Source: Candidatus Latescibacterota bacterium
GTDB taxonomy: Bacteria > JAAXHH01 > JABIQT01
Direction of reading: 5' to 3'
NCBI GenBank assembly: GCA_018667995.1
Contig: JABIQT010000039.1
Coordinates: 1-5,221, forward strand
Length of the DNA stretch: 5,221 bases
Position 1 is the first letter of the stretch. Each line of letters starts with the position of its first letter. The position numbers and the translations under genes are program-made. This document shows positions 1 to 5,221 of the stretch, piece by piece. The notes under the pieces are model-generated. The model ran no database searches, was not told the origin of the DNA, and was given only the letters and a program-made list of their open reading frames with translations.

Positions 1-647
1 GGTGCTTCGACCCAATGGGGGGTCATGATGTGGTTCCAGATGAACTGGCTATCACCCGTGTCAATCGTCAGTAGATCCTCGTTTCCTATGTTTTCAGGGC
101 GTCCCTTCTGGTTTACATCAGTCTGCAGAGCCCAATCCAATGGTGCTTTCTCCTCAGGATTTCTAAGTCCGTGAAAGTGCTTAAGTCCCCGGACGTTCCA
201 AAACAGGACGTTCGAACTATCCACGTGGTATCCTGTAACTGTAGCGGGTCCCGACACCCGCATAATTGCGTAGCACCGATCCCAGGAGAACCCGTTTTCT
301 CTCAGGAAGGATTCCCACGGCCTCATCACGGTCTCTCCGAATCCGTACAGAATCTGGCCTGGAATGTCGAACTCACCAATGTTAAAATGAGTCAGTTGAA
401 ATGATGTCTCCAGCAATTCCTCAAAGGACAAACTACGGTAGTAATCGCCTGCGTCCCGAACTTCCAGATGATCGGAAATCGTGCCAGAAATGGCTTTCAT
501 ATTCGGATTTGCCTGGAGGGCAGAAACGATATCCGCCGTTGATGGAAAATCAAACGAGAAGGGCACACAGTCATCCTCCATCAGGAAATTGATTCCAGAT
601 GCCCAGTTCTCCCTAAACTCCTCTGCCGTCGTGAATGTGTTAGACAT
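1..647 (-). CDS. JmjC/cupin_8-type Fe(II)/2-oxoglutarate-dependent oxygenase, C-terminus cut by window edge
   Basis: Reading the minus strand from the ATG at 647-645 gives 215 uninterrupted codons to the left edge, so the C-terminus is missing. The visible part carries a JmjC-like iron site. H141-x-D143 (GYHVDSSN) is followed by a distal H211 in TPHWVEA, just after a GDS turn near residue 198. K156 (RGLKHF) lies 15 residues after H141 and T138 three before it, the same spacing as the 2-oxoglutarate-binding K214 and T196 relative to H199 in human FIH. Family members hydroxylate or demethylate proteins or small molecules using O2 and 2-oxoglutarate in the cytoplasm; the substrate here is unknown. 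No signal peptide is visible. The start is the first ATG after an in-frame TGA at 680-678, and the GGGGGA upstream is unusually close (3 nt). It is divergent to the ceramidase-like gene across 59 bp. Fold and iron site are fairly sure; function is not. Confidence 0.82.
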   Translation of the reverse strand, partial: MSNTFTTAEEFRENWASGINFLMEDDCVPFSFDFPSTADIVSALQANPNMKAISGTISDHLEVRDAGDYYRSLSFEELLETSFQLTHFNIGEFDIPGQILYGFGETVMRPWESFLRENGFSWDRCYAIMRVSGPATVTGYHVDSSNVLFWNVRGLKHFHGLRNPEEKAPLDWALQTDVNQKGRPENIGNEDLLTIDTGDSQFIWNHIMTPHWVEA

Positions 648-2054: not shown

Positions 2055-2321
2055 TCATGTCTGTTCATCCGAAGCCTCATTGTCGACGGCAATTTCCATC
2101 TCATATTCCTGAAACACGATTTGATCGCCGCTGTAGATCTTTCTGCGCTTTCGTGTCTCGATCAAACCGTTGACGCTGACAAGCCTTTCAGAAATGACGA
2201 ACTTTGCTTCTCCGCCACTTTGCACAAGGTTCTCCATCTTAAGCACTTTGTAGAGTTCTATGGGTTCTTGTTTTACCGTTACCACATTCATTAGTAATGT
2301 CCATGTGTCGCTTTGAGTCAT
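2055..2321 (-). CDS. Small S4-domain RNA-binding protein (YbcJ-like)
   Basis: The frame encodes 88 aa and is essentially one S4 RNA-binding domain, residues about 20-72. It shows the motif order typical of COG2501/YbcJ-like proteins: IELYKVLKMENLV, then SGGEAKF, VSVNGLIETRKRRKI and YSGDQIVF. The basic RKRRK patch (57-61) and the GGEAK turn form the usual RNA-contact face. Relatives are cytoplasmic and thought to bind structured or ribosomal RNA; the exact target is unknown. The chosen ATG overlaps the ppgK stop as ATGA (2318-2321), implying translational coupling, but there is no good Shine-Dalgarno. An internal ATG at 2291 (M11) would give a 78-aa protein, closer to the family's usual 70-75 aa, and cannot be excluded. 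It is the last gene of the leftward operon. The tail after residue 76 is acidic. Confidence 0.88.
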   Translation of the reverse strand: MTQSDTWTLLMNVVTVKQEPIELYKVLKMENLVQSGGEAKFVISERLVSVNGLIETRKRRKIYSGDQIVFQEYEMEIAVDNEASDEQT

Positions 2322-3055
2322 TCAATACCCGGAGCCGCGAGTGCGGCACCTATGATGCCCGCCTGATTCCGGAGTTGTGCGGGCACTATCTGTGCTGACA
2401 CCGTCAGGTAGGGAAAGTACCGCTCATGTTTTCTGCTGGCGCCACCGCCTATGATGATCATGTCCGGCCATAACAGTGCCTCTATGGCCGTAAGATATTC
2501 GTCCACCCGGATTCCCCACTTCTTCCAGCTGAGTTTTCTAGTAATTCTTACACGTTCCGATGCCCGTTTCTCCGCATCCTTTCCGCGGAGTTCGATATGG
2601 CCCAATTCAGTATTCGGTATGAGGGTCTGGTTGATGAACACTGAGGTACCGATACCCGTCCCCAATGTCACGATTAACACCAATCCCGTCTGACTCCTTC
2701 CTGCTCCGAATCGCATTTCTGCGAGGCCCGCGGCATCAGCGTCATTCAGAAAATTGGTGGAGAGGCCAGTGGCTTCCTGAAGCAGATCTCGGGCGTTAAC
2801 TCCGATCCAATCCGATGAGATATTCGAGGCGGTATGCACGCATCCGTCTTTGATAACTGCGGGAAACCCGCAACCGACGGGGCCAGTCCACTTGTAGTGA
2901 TCTACGATCGCTTTCACCGTATCAATGATCGCTCCCGGCGTGGCTGGCTGAGGCGTTAGGATCCGCAACCGATCTCTTGTGATGGCGCCCGTTTTGGTAT
3001 CTACGGGGGCGCCCTTAATCCCCGTTCCACCGATGTCTATGCCCAATACTTCCAT
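2318..3055 (-). CDS. ppgK: Polyphosphate glucokinase (ROK family)
   Basis: This 245-aa ROK-fold kinase should transfer phosphate from polyphosphate (often also ATP) to glucose, giving glucose 6-phosphate in the cytoplasm. Visible motifs are the first phosphate loop GIDIGGTGIKG (5-15), the substrate/catalytic LNDADAAG (103-110, probable catalytic base D105), the second phosphate loop TLGTGIGTS (130-138), NTELGHIELRGKDAEKRAS (148-166) and IIGGGAS (201-207). The NTELGH...GKDAE..AS stretch and the lack of the zinc-binding CxCGxxGC of ordinary ROK kinases and repressors identify the polyphosphate-glucokinase branch. Length matches the family (about 250 aa). The frame is open upstream to 3334, but the MEVLGID start at 3055 fits the family N-terminus and has AAGGAG six bases before it; the extension runs antiparallel to nothing recognisable and overlaps the upstream gene. 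Its stop overlaps the S4 gene's start; the CBM9-like gene lies 19 bp upstream. Confidence 0.93.
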   Translation of the reverse strand: MEVLGIDIGGTGIKGAPVDTKTGAITRDRLRILTPQPATPGAIIDTVKAIVDHYKWTGPVGCGFPAVIKDGCVHTASNISSDWIGVNARDLLQEATGLSTNFLNDADAAGLAEMRFGAGRSQTGLVLIVTLGTGIGTSVFINQTLIPNTELGHIELRGKDAEKRASERVRITRKLSWKKWGIRVDEYLTAIEALLWPDMIIIGGGASRKHERYFPYLTVSAQIVPAQLRNQAGIIGAALAAPGIE

Positions 3056-3074: not shown

Positions 3075-3950
3075 TTAAACGGCCTCGTCGGCAGAAAACA
3101 CGATGTACGGCCATCTGTCCGGGACATGCATCTGCACCTTACCGTGTTGGGAAATGGACCAATCGCGTGATCGCAGCGTATGGCCATCCTCATCGCGCCA
3201 ATGCTGCACACGCGAGCACCCAATGCGCCAGGTGTCTCCAATTTCAGGCGGGAGGGGTCTCCCGAGTCTCGCAAGGTCAGACATTCCTGACCACGGAAAC
3301 GCCATTTCCGCCATCCAGGCACGGTCTGGGACACTTCGATTGTTCAATGTGCCGTCGATCTGTACCGCCGTCTTCAGGCCCGGAAAATCCCAATCGAAGC
3401 TTCCATGTCTGCCGGGATAGTCGTCTTCCAGATTGCCATAAATGGCGCGTCTGGACTTGAAAAGTTCGTCAAGAGCCTCGTAGTTTGCAGCTTCAGCCAA
3501 CGGTTGAAACCAGGTCCAGAAGACTTCGTAAACGGCGTTCAGAGCGTTAATCTGAAGCTCGTAGTAGGTTCCGTCGCCCAGAATGAAGACCTCGAACTCG
3601 CAGTCCGCACTGATACGACCGTCCCTGGTGGTCTCATATCCAAATACATCAGACTCTTCGAGGCGTACCGCGGCATAAAGAGCCGAACTATCCCAGAGGA
3701 AAGCCACACGGGTATCAAGCTCAGTAGCTGTTCCGTGCTCCATGTCTACGAAAGGGCCCATCCAGGCGGCATGTTGCCACGCGGCCTTGTCAAGCCGGCC
3801 GTCTATCTGAAGAGGCTCTGGCGTCCTCTGGCAGATGTAGGTCGGCGGTTGTGCAAGTCCTCTGCGGCCCCGATGGCCTCCGGAAATTTCCTGCGACCGA
3901 ACGGTATCAGGGATTTCAGGCGGAATAAACTCGAGTGGTGGGTCGGTCAT
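3075..3950 (-). CDS. Carbohydrate-binding family 9-like (CBM9/DOMON-like) protein without signal peptide
   Basis: The gene encodes 291 aa. Residues about 46-286 form a CBM9-like beta-sandwich. The opening is LQIDGRLDKAAW (48-59), followed by VAFLWDSSALYAAVRLEE (82-99), EFEVFILGDGTYYELQINA (118-136), a WMAEMAFPW strand (212-220), DTWRIGCSRVQ (239-249) and the closing strands WSISQHG / MHVPDRWPYIVF (264-285). Characterised CBM9 modules bind sugar ends of polysaccharides, mostly attached to secreted glycosidases; free-standing bacterial members like this have no established function. Residues 1-45 are low-complexity and rich in Pro, Arg and Glu, with no hydrophobic signal segment, so the protein is predicted to be cytoplasmic, which is odd for the family. 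The ATG overlaps the upstream stop as ATGA (3947-3950), and a weak GAAGAG lies nine bases upstream. The next gene, ppgK, begins 19 bp after its stop, which suggests a link to sugar metabolism. The fold is confident; ligand binding is inference. Confidence 0.88.
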   Translation of the reverse strand: MTDPPLEFIPPEIPDTVRSQEISGGHRGRRGLAQPPTYICQRTPEPLQIDGRLDKAAWQHAAWMGPFVDMEHGTATELDTRVAFLWDSSALYAAVRLEESDVFGYETTRDGRISADCEFEVFILGDGTYYELQINALNAVYEVFWTWFQPLAEAANYEALDELFKSRRAIYGNLEDDYPGRHGSFDWDFPGLKTAVQIDGTLNNRSVPDRAWMAEMAFPWSGMSDLARLGRPLPPEIGDTWRIGCSRVQHWRDEDGHTLRSRDWSISQHGKVQMHVPDRWPYIVFSADEAV

Positions 3951-4639
3951 TGGGTGGACTCTTCGTCGTTGGGACCGGGAAACGGGGCGGCCGTGTCATA
4001 CAGGGCATCCCCGGTGGTATCGAAGGCCTCCTCAGGATCCTCATCGGGATGCACCATTGGTCTTGGAGAGGTGATACGCCAGTAATACCCTTCGGAGTCA
4101 AGAATCCGGAAGTCTTTGGCGCCCCATGGGCGGTCCACAAGCTGTTCCTGGATTGAAATCCCGGACTGCTGGATTTGCGAGAAGAAATGGTCGATATCCG
4201 ATACCTCGAGTACGAGCTCGAGTCCGACGCCCCGTACCAAGTCTTTGGGATTGTGGTCAACTACGGCTGGATGCCACAGCAGTTCGTCGGTCTTAAGGCC
4301 GATTATAAGCGCACCCCGGTGCAGGAGTACGTATCCGGGATTGAGGACCATTTCCTTGAAGCCGAGGTTCTGGATGTAAAAATGGACAGCTCTGTCCATA
4401 TCTTTGACAGCGAGATTAATCTGCAGCTGTGCTGCTGGCATATTCAGTTGAACGTTTCCTGCCCGTGCCCCGCGTGGTGTGAACTGCACATCGTAATTTA
4501 CCTTGTCACCTACCTGTAGCCGTGCAAAGGGGGTCTCCTGAACATTGGTCCGGTGAAAGAATATATCCTCACCCTCCGGACTGGTCACAAATCCGAATCC
4601 TCTTGCCTGATTCAATCGGGAAATAGTGCCCTGTGGCAT
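3947..4639 (-). CDS. Fusion of a cold-shock domain with a VOC (glyoxalase/bleomycin-resistance) domain
   Basis: This 230-aa protein has two recognisable domains. Residues 1-66 are a cold-shock domain with GTISRLNQARGFGFV (RNP1-like, 4-18) and EDIFFHRT (RNP2-like, 24-31), followed by LQVGDKVNYDV and the closing ARAGNVQLN. It should bind single-stranded nucleic acid. Residues about 71-192 are a VOC domain with two beta-alpha-beta halves: INLAVKDMDRAVHFYIQNLGF (74-94, written in two parts here: INLAVKDMD and RAVHFY...LGF) and ELVLEVSDIDHFF...FRILDSEGYYWRIT (141-190). Usual metal-ligand positions look altered: N75 at the first-strand His, and R188 where the last-strand Glu is expected. A bleomycin-resistance-like binding role may therefore fit better than glyoxalase. 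The tail (199-230) is acidic and probably disordered. Start 4639 is preferred over 4717 because the cold-shock family begins here and GGAAGA lies upstream. It is the first gene of the leftward operon. Confidence 0.88.
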   Translation of the reverse strand: MPQGTISRLNQARGFGFVTSPEGEDIFFHRTNVQETPFARLQVGDKVNYDVQFTPRGARAGNVQLNMPAAQLQINLAVKDMDRAVHFYIQNLGFKEMVLNPGYVLLHRGALIIGLKTDELLWHPAVVDHNPKDLVRGVGLELVLEVSDIDHFFSQIQQSGISIQEQLVDRPWGAKDFRILDSEGYYWRITSPRPMVHPDEDPEEAFDTTGDALYDTAAPFPGPNDEESTQ

Positions 4640-4684: not shown

Positions 4685-4706
4685 GGCGAGATATGTATGT
4701 CTCGCC
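4685..4706. repeat. Perfect 7-bp inverted repeat in the operon leader
   Basis: GGCGAGA (4685-4691) and TCTCGCC (4700-4706) are perfect inverted arms around an 8-base spacer. The element sits 46-67 bases upstream of the chosen start of the cold-shock/VOC gene. In that gene's mRNA it would form a GC-rich hairpin in the 5' leader, upstream of the ribosome binding site. No T-run follows on either strand, so it is not an intrinsic terminator. It could be a protein operator in the divergent region or an RNA leader element; the sequence alone does not decide. The right arm overlaps an 8-bp palindrome CGCCGGCG (4703-4710). Confidence 0.5.
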
Positions 4707-4804
4707 GGCGTAATCATTTATTGATGTAGAATCGGCATAAAGTCAAGCGATTCTTTAGCAATATTGGTGTCAAAACCTACCGGCGAAGGACGGGCATTTG
4801 TGTC

Positions 4805-4833
4805 TTGACATTCCCACTGACTGAATCTACACT
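4805..4833 (+). promoter_or_regulatory. Sigma70-type promoter for the metallo-hydrolase gene
   Basis: A perfect -35 hexamer TTGACA (4805-4810) is followed, after exactly 17 bp, by TACACT (4828-4833), which matches four of six bases of TATAAT including the key first, second and last positions. Transcription would start near 4840, leaving a leader of about 54 nt before the ATG at 4894. It points right, away from the leftward operon. Confidence 0.65.
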
Positions 4834-4893: not shown

Positions 4894-5221
4894 ATGTCTT
4901 CTATCAAAATTGATTTCCTCGGTCATGCTTCATTCAGGTTCGAATCTGATGGCACGGTTATTTACTTTGATCCGTGGCTTGACAATAATCCCGCCTGCTC
5001 GGAAAGCGCAGCGGATGTTTCAGATGCGGACATCGTCATCGCAACTCACGGGCACTCGGATCACATAGGTGATTCATTTCAGATTGCCCAGCAAACGGGT
5101 GCGACTTTTGTCAGCAACTTTGAATTGTGTCTGGTGGCTGAAAAGGCAGCAGGATTGACCATGGGCGACCGATCTCTCGCTCTCAATCCTGGTGGGACGG
5201 GACGCGTCAAGAATGTGGACA
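4894..5221 (+). CDS. UPF0173-type metallo-beta-lactamase-fold metal-dependent hydrolase, C-terminus cut by window edge
   Basis: The frame runs 109 codons from the ATG to the right edge without a stop. It shows the metallo-beta-lactamase signature THGHSDHIGD (51-60), giving metal ligands H52, H54, D56 and H57. Preceding it are the short family N-terminus IDFLGHASF (6-14, with H11) and FDPWLDNNP (25-33). The following stretch, FELCLVAEKAAGLTMG and then LNPGGTG, matches the order of the YtkL-like UPF0173 branch, whose members are about 225-230 aa, so about half is visible; later ligand histidines lie beyond the window. These are cytoplasmic dinuclear metal hydrolases with no settled natural substrate. 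A good ribosome binding site and a sigma70-type promoter lie directly upstream, so it is probably transcribed on its own or as the head of a rightward operon, divergent from the cold-shock/VOC gene. Confidence 0.9.
   Translation, partial: MSSIKIDFLGHASFRFESDGTVIYFDPWLDNNPACSESAADVSDADIVIATHGHSDHIGDSFQIAQQTGATFVSNFELCLVAEKAAGLTMGDRSLALNPGGTGRVKNVD

Follow-up and report, generated by a model that had tools for sequence, protein, structure and literature searches.

Few RNA binders are as common in bacteria as the cold-shock domains (CSDs). CspA, CspB and CspD of family PF00313 share a five-strand OB barrel, with the RNP1 motif RGFGFV and the RNP2 motif DIFFH. A CSD joined to a second functional domain is seen in PDB 9t0z, a ribosome hibernation factor chain in which the partner is the hibernation factor and the CSD is C-terminal (residues 118-178 of 183). 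The VOC fold is found in glyoxalase I (GloA), and also in the TioX and bleomycin-resistance-type proteins, which carry a PWG motif near the domain end.

The analysed window is a stretch of 5,221 nucleotides from a Candidatus Latescibacterota genome. A gene on its minus strand (3947-4639) encodes a protein of 230 aa, in which an N-terminal CSD is followed by a VOC domain (CSD-VOC). The protein has the barrel and both RNP motifs in common with CspA, CspB and CspD; whereas it carries Arg at positions W8 and F30 and possesses a second domain. With the TioX and bleomycin-resistance type it shares the VOC fold and the PWG motif; however, its VOC domain is fused to a CSD, and its gene is a core gene within an operon and does not belong to a natural-product cluster. 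In 9t0z, by contrast, the partner of the CSD is not a VOC domain. The fusion is genuine, and it is a new domain architecture made of known parts, not a new kind of system. A full-text literature search, with most subscription papers and the domain databases outside its scope, returned no description of such a protein, which is weak evidence.

Domain architecture of the fusion protein

The CSD-VOC reading frame runs from an ATG at 4639 to a stop codon at 3947-3949 and has no internal stop. A longer open reading frame begins at 4717, but the MPQG start at 4639 was preferred because it is backed by the orthologues; for example, the G011 orthologue has a stop codon, then one residue, and then MPQG. 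The first-pass annotation had described a complete CSD with RGFGFV and DIFFH motifs, joined in one frame to a complete VOC domain, and its coordinates, motifs and domain assignments all held. Pfam placed the CSD at residues 3-64 (4448-4633) and the VOC domain at residues 73-188 (4076-4423).

The structure prediction proposed in that annotation was run with AlphaFold2, and both domain folds were recovered (mean pLDDT 75.6, pTM 0.52). The model contains a five-strand CSD barrel (residues 3-65), a complete VOC fold (70-190) and a disordered tail from residue 197; the placement of the two domains relative to each other is uncertain at this pTM. Solved CSD and VOC structures were each matched by the corresponding half of the protein. 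The last CSD strand ends at residue 65 and the first VOC strand starts at residue 70, and the Pfam matches to the two families lie four residues apart. The intervening four-residue linker (66-69; 4433-4444) is constant in length and variable in sequence. The tail (residues 197-230; 3950-4051) is acidic and predicted to be disordered (pLDDT <50); the orthologue tails are also acidic and differ in length.

The cold-shock half

The CSD matched Pfam PF00313 with 55.8 bits (cut-off 27; E-value 4.2e-15) over profile positions 2-64 of 66, and contains the RGFGFV and IFFHR motifs. Its sequence matches included CspLA and CspB, and its VIA-align Z score against CspB structures was about 12. The protein scored far under the NCBIfam cut-offs for the CspA/C/D/E/G equivalogs and subfamilies.

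Among the RNA-surface residues of CspB-type proteins, F15 (Tyr in one genus), F17, F27, H29 and F38 are kept; whereas W8 is replaced by Arg, F9 by Leu and F30 by Arg. The aromatic nucleic-acid surface of RNP1 and RNP2 is thus present in an altered form that lacks W8 and F30, and W8 is one of the residues on which stacking mainly depends in canonical CspB-type proteins. Since Arg replaces W8 and F30 while most contact residues are kept, the domain probably binds single strands with an altered preference, by analogy with CspB-type complexes.

The VOC half

The VOC half matched Pfam PF00903 with 42.2 bits (cut-off 20.6; E-value 1.2e-10). Its predicted fold has the paired beta-alpha-beta-beta-beta modules of the VOC superfamily, and VIA-align gave a Z score of 14.3 to structure 2rk9 (111 residues, rmsd 2.6). 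The nearest solved sequence relatives include TioX, the best PDB sequence match (1.2e-9), and bleomycin-resistance-type proteins. Invariant residues among the orthologues are W122, E141, P171-W172-G173, Y185-Y186-W187 and R188, and position 73 is either Gln or His.

The alignment with E. coli GloA (hhalign) spans residues 72-189, and the GloA metal ligands H5, H74 and E122 fall on Q73, E141 and R188; the fourth ligand position corresponds to G114 by manual strand alignment only. The four-residue metal site of GloA (His, Glu, His, Glu) is therefore absent from the VOC half, which also scored 15.9 bits against the glyoxalase I model TIGR00068 (cut-off 120 bits). Stand-alone glyoxalase I activity was rejected, as the metal site is not conserved. 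Because the canonical metal site is lost, the residue pattern fits a binding domain rather than a glyoxalase enzyme.

Conservation within the phylum and origin of the fusion

Orthologues were sought in 96 genomes and then in the 16 available genomes of the phylum to which the window belongs, which fall into three families of one order; 'phylum' and 'order' are used in these counts as kinship labels. CSD-VOC is present in 15 of the 16 genomes (53-61% identity), including 9/9 good assemblies. The sole exception is G014, in which the glucokinase gene begins at contig base 71, so the absence is explained by the neighbouring gene falling off the contig edge. Both Pfam families were matched in all 14 full-length orthologues. 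The 15 aligned sequences have zero indels over residues 1-193; one of them is incomplete at its N-terminus because its contig ends there. A frameshift or missed stop at residues 66-71, which the first-pass annotation had named as grounds for refuting the fusion, was sought in the relatives; the junction is gap-free and none was found. Within one genus dN/dS was 0.11 in the CSD and 0.13 in the VOC domain, so both halves are under purifying selection.

A profile of 14 full-length CSD-VOC proteins was searched against about 1,000 genomes outside the phylum at thresholds of 1e-14 and 1e-17, and no fusion was found among the limited number of candidates scored per genome, a design that a very divergent or reverse-order fusion could escape. 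The matches were free-standing CSDs (E-value about 1e-15) and one free-standing VOC protein. A scan of genome contigs gave matches to the CSD part only, in Bacteroidota/Ignavibacteria and further bacteria, and a scan of viral contigs gave no match at all.

The free-standing VOC relative (G171, 137 aa, E-value 6.7e-21) has E141, R188 and the PWG motif in common with the fusion; thus the subfamily of the VOC half also occurs alone. The 'FFHR' variant of the CSD is likewise found in free-standing proteins, for example at locus L051 of G013. As both types exist separately, the fusion appears to have arisen by the joining of two domain types that already existed, with fixation early in the phylum. 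Tandem cold-shock gene pairs were also observed at about 5001-5500 of three Bacteroidota/Ignavibacteria loci (L007, L008 and L009), in which the first gene is of a canonical VFVHF/VFVHY type and the second of an IFFHKSNV type; this suggests a common two-type arrangement.

Operon and upstream region

CSD-VOC is the first gene of an operon, as had been proposed at first pass; its position is marked by 4-nt stop-start overlaps, a conserved TTGACTT upstream and a fixed partner gene. The order in the window, all on the minus strand, is CSD-VOC, a gene with weak similarity to carbohydrate-binding family 9 (CBM9), a polyphosphate glucokinase and an S4-domain gene. The CSD-VOC stop codon overlaps the start of the second gene as ATGA (3947-3950). 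The second gene (3075-3950, 291 aa) has orthologues at the equivalent position in G013, G011 and G001. As its structure prediction was poor (pLDDT 29, three sequences), the carbohydrate-binding label comes only from sub-threshold Pfam matches; its place in the operon is backed by synteny.

The third gene (2318-3055) encodes a polyphosphate--glucose phosphotransferase of the ROK family, with 333 bits against the equivalog model NF045942 (cut-off 250; E-value 8.7e-100). This gene lies downstream of CSD-VOC in all 15 genomes (14/14 relatives and the window). In the ten genomes of genus g3 whose leaders were examined, this position holds no CBM9-like gene, and the stop codon of CSD-VOC runs directly into the glucokinase start as ATGA or GTGA. 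The S4-domain gene (2055-2321, 88 aa; S4_2, E-value 3.1e-23) encodes a YaaA/YbcJ-like RNA-binding protein, and its start overlaps the glucokinase stop codon as ATGA. No orthologue of it was seen beside the operons at the related loci. With CSD-VOC, it gives the window operon two putative RNA-binding proteins.

The heptamer TTGACTT occurs 91-234 nt upstream of CSD-VOC in 14/14 genomes examined (13 relatives and the window). In the window it belongs to a -35-like element, TTGACTTT (4738-4745, minus strand), 107 nt upstream of the gene. The g3 leaders (L059:4725-4970 and nine other loci) are about 215-234 nt long, and TTGACTT is followed there by an invariant CCTAACATG block; the two look like a -35/-10 pair. 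A GGTTCC/GGAACC-type hairpin is located just 5' of the start codon in 10/10 g3 genomes and is confined to this one genus, where it fits a candidate autoregulation site. A hairpin of this type was not seen in the window leader, which contains a GGCGAGA-type inverted repeat (GGCGAGATAT/ATGTCTCGCC, 4685-4706) that was not seen in the relatives by eye. Two-sided change was found in just 4 of the 56 predicted leader pairs in the one genus examined, which is too few to argue strongly for a conserved leader structure. Rfam and ARAGORN scans of the window returned nothing.

Several other genes were observed in the window. A divergent gene on the plus strand (4894-5221) encodes a metal-dependent hydrolase of the metallo-beta-lactamase fold (PRK00685-like), and TTGACA-17-TACACT at 4805-4833 forms a good sigma-70-like promoter for it. 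G013, G011 and G001 likewise have this gene in the neighbourhood of CSD-VOC. The plus-strand gene at 707-1966 encodes a distant neutral/alkaline ceramidase-like protein (Pfam E-value 1.9e-4, under the cut-off). An open reading frame of 215 aa (3-647, minus strand) runs off the window start; it has no confident family and only a sub-threshold Pfam match to 3-HAO.

Possible functions

Ligand-tuned nucleic-acid binding is the likeliest function of CSD-VOC, and it is put forward tentatively as a plausible one. The nucleic-acid contacts kept in the CSD and the lost metal site of the VOC half speak in its favour, and the missing W8 speaks against it. The two-domain protein would be inherited vertically. 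Its non-canonical CSD would bind single-stranded RNA or DNA, and the VOC domain, probably non-catalytic, would bind a small molecule and probably dimerise. The linker between the CSD and VOC strands is short and constant in length, so mechanical coupling is possible: ligand occupancy or the dimer state would alter the engagement of nucleic acid by the CSD. The protein would then tune its own operon, or a few sugar or energy transcripts, in response to a metabolite. Since the fusion is kept across the phylum and always heads a polyphosphate glucokinase operon, it is probably a dedicated regulator; however, a conserved operon position is by itself no proof of regulation.

The main rival, although an unlikely one, is that the VOC domain plays no part in ligand binding and acts as a scaffold for dimerisation, which would make CSD-VOC a bivalent cold-shock protein with constitutive RNA binding. 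VOC domains often form dimers and the canonical metal site is absent here; moreover, CSDs bind short stretches, and bivalency would increase affinity. However, the invariant VOC residues, many of which are likely to line the pocket, exceed what a pure scaffold needs, and E141 and R188 are kept even in the free-standing relative that has no CSD.

An enzymatic role, in which the VOC domain would process a small molecule or damaged nucleotides and the CSD would bring it to RNA or DNA, is improbable. The VOC fold does include enzymes (glyoxalase I, epimerases and dioxygenases), E141 is invariant, His occurs as well as Gln at position 73, and a sugar-kinase operon could generate methylglyoxal-type damage. 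The metal site argues against such an enzyme, as an invariant Arg stands at the position of GloA E122 and a Glu at that of H74.

Sequestration of a drug or toxic metabolite in the manner of TioX or the bleomycin-resistance proteins, with the CSD helping to shield nucleic acid against a compound that would intercalate into it or cleave it, is likewise improbable. The closeness to TioX, a thiocoraline cluster protein, is consistent with it, as are weak matches to the bleomycin-binding models of NCBIfam (BLMA, BLMT and BleO); however, these scores of about 18 bits are far under the cut-offs of 140-275 bits, and a core gene of a glucokinase operon throughout the phylum is unlike a resistance gene. 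An assembly or frameshift artefact, which might be suspected of a short contig from a fragmented draft genome (1165 contigs), is refuted by the 15 gap-free orthologues from three families and by purifying selection.

Ligand-tuned binding might be extended to a phylum-specific class of single-polypeptide, metabolite-gated RNA-binding regulators, in which a VOC sensor and a CSD, tightly joined and translationally coupled to polyphosphate glucokinase, would exert RNA-level control over the polyphosphate-driven entry of glucose into metabolism; this extension is speculative and rather doubtful. Given that polyphosphate glucokinase is the constant partner of CSD-VOC, candidate ligands are glucose, glucose-6-phosphate, polyphosphate and triose-derived dicarbonyls; the partnership also points to a candidate target transcript. 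To our knowledge, cold-shock domains are usually regarded as unregulated at the protein level. The conserved combination of a CSD with a ligand-binding fold would therefore offer a test case for direct metabolite control of RNA binding by cold-shock domains.
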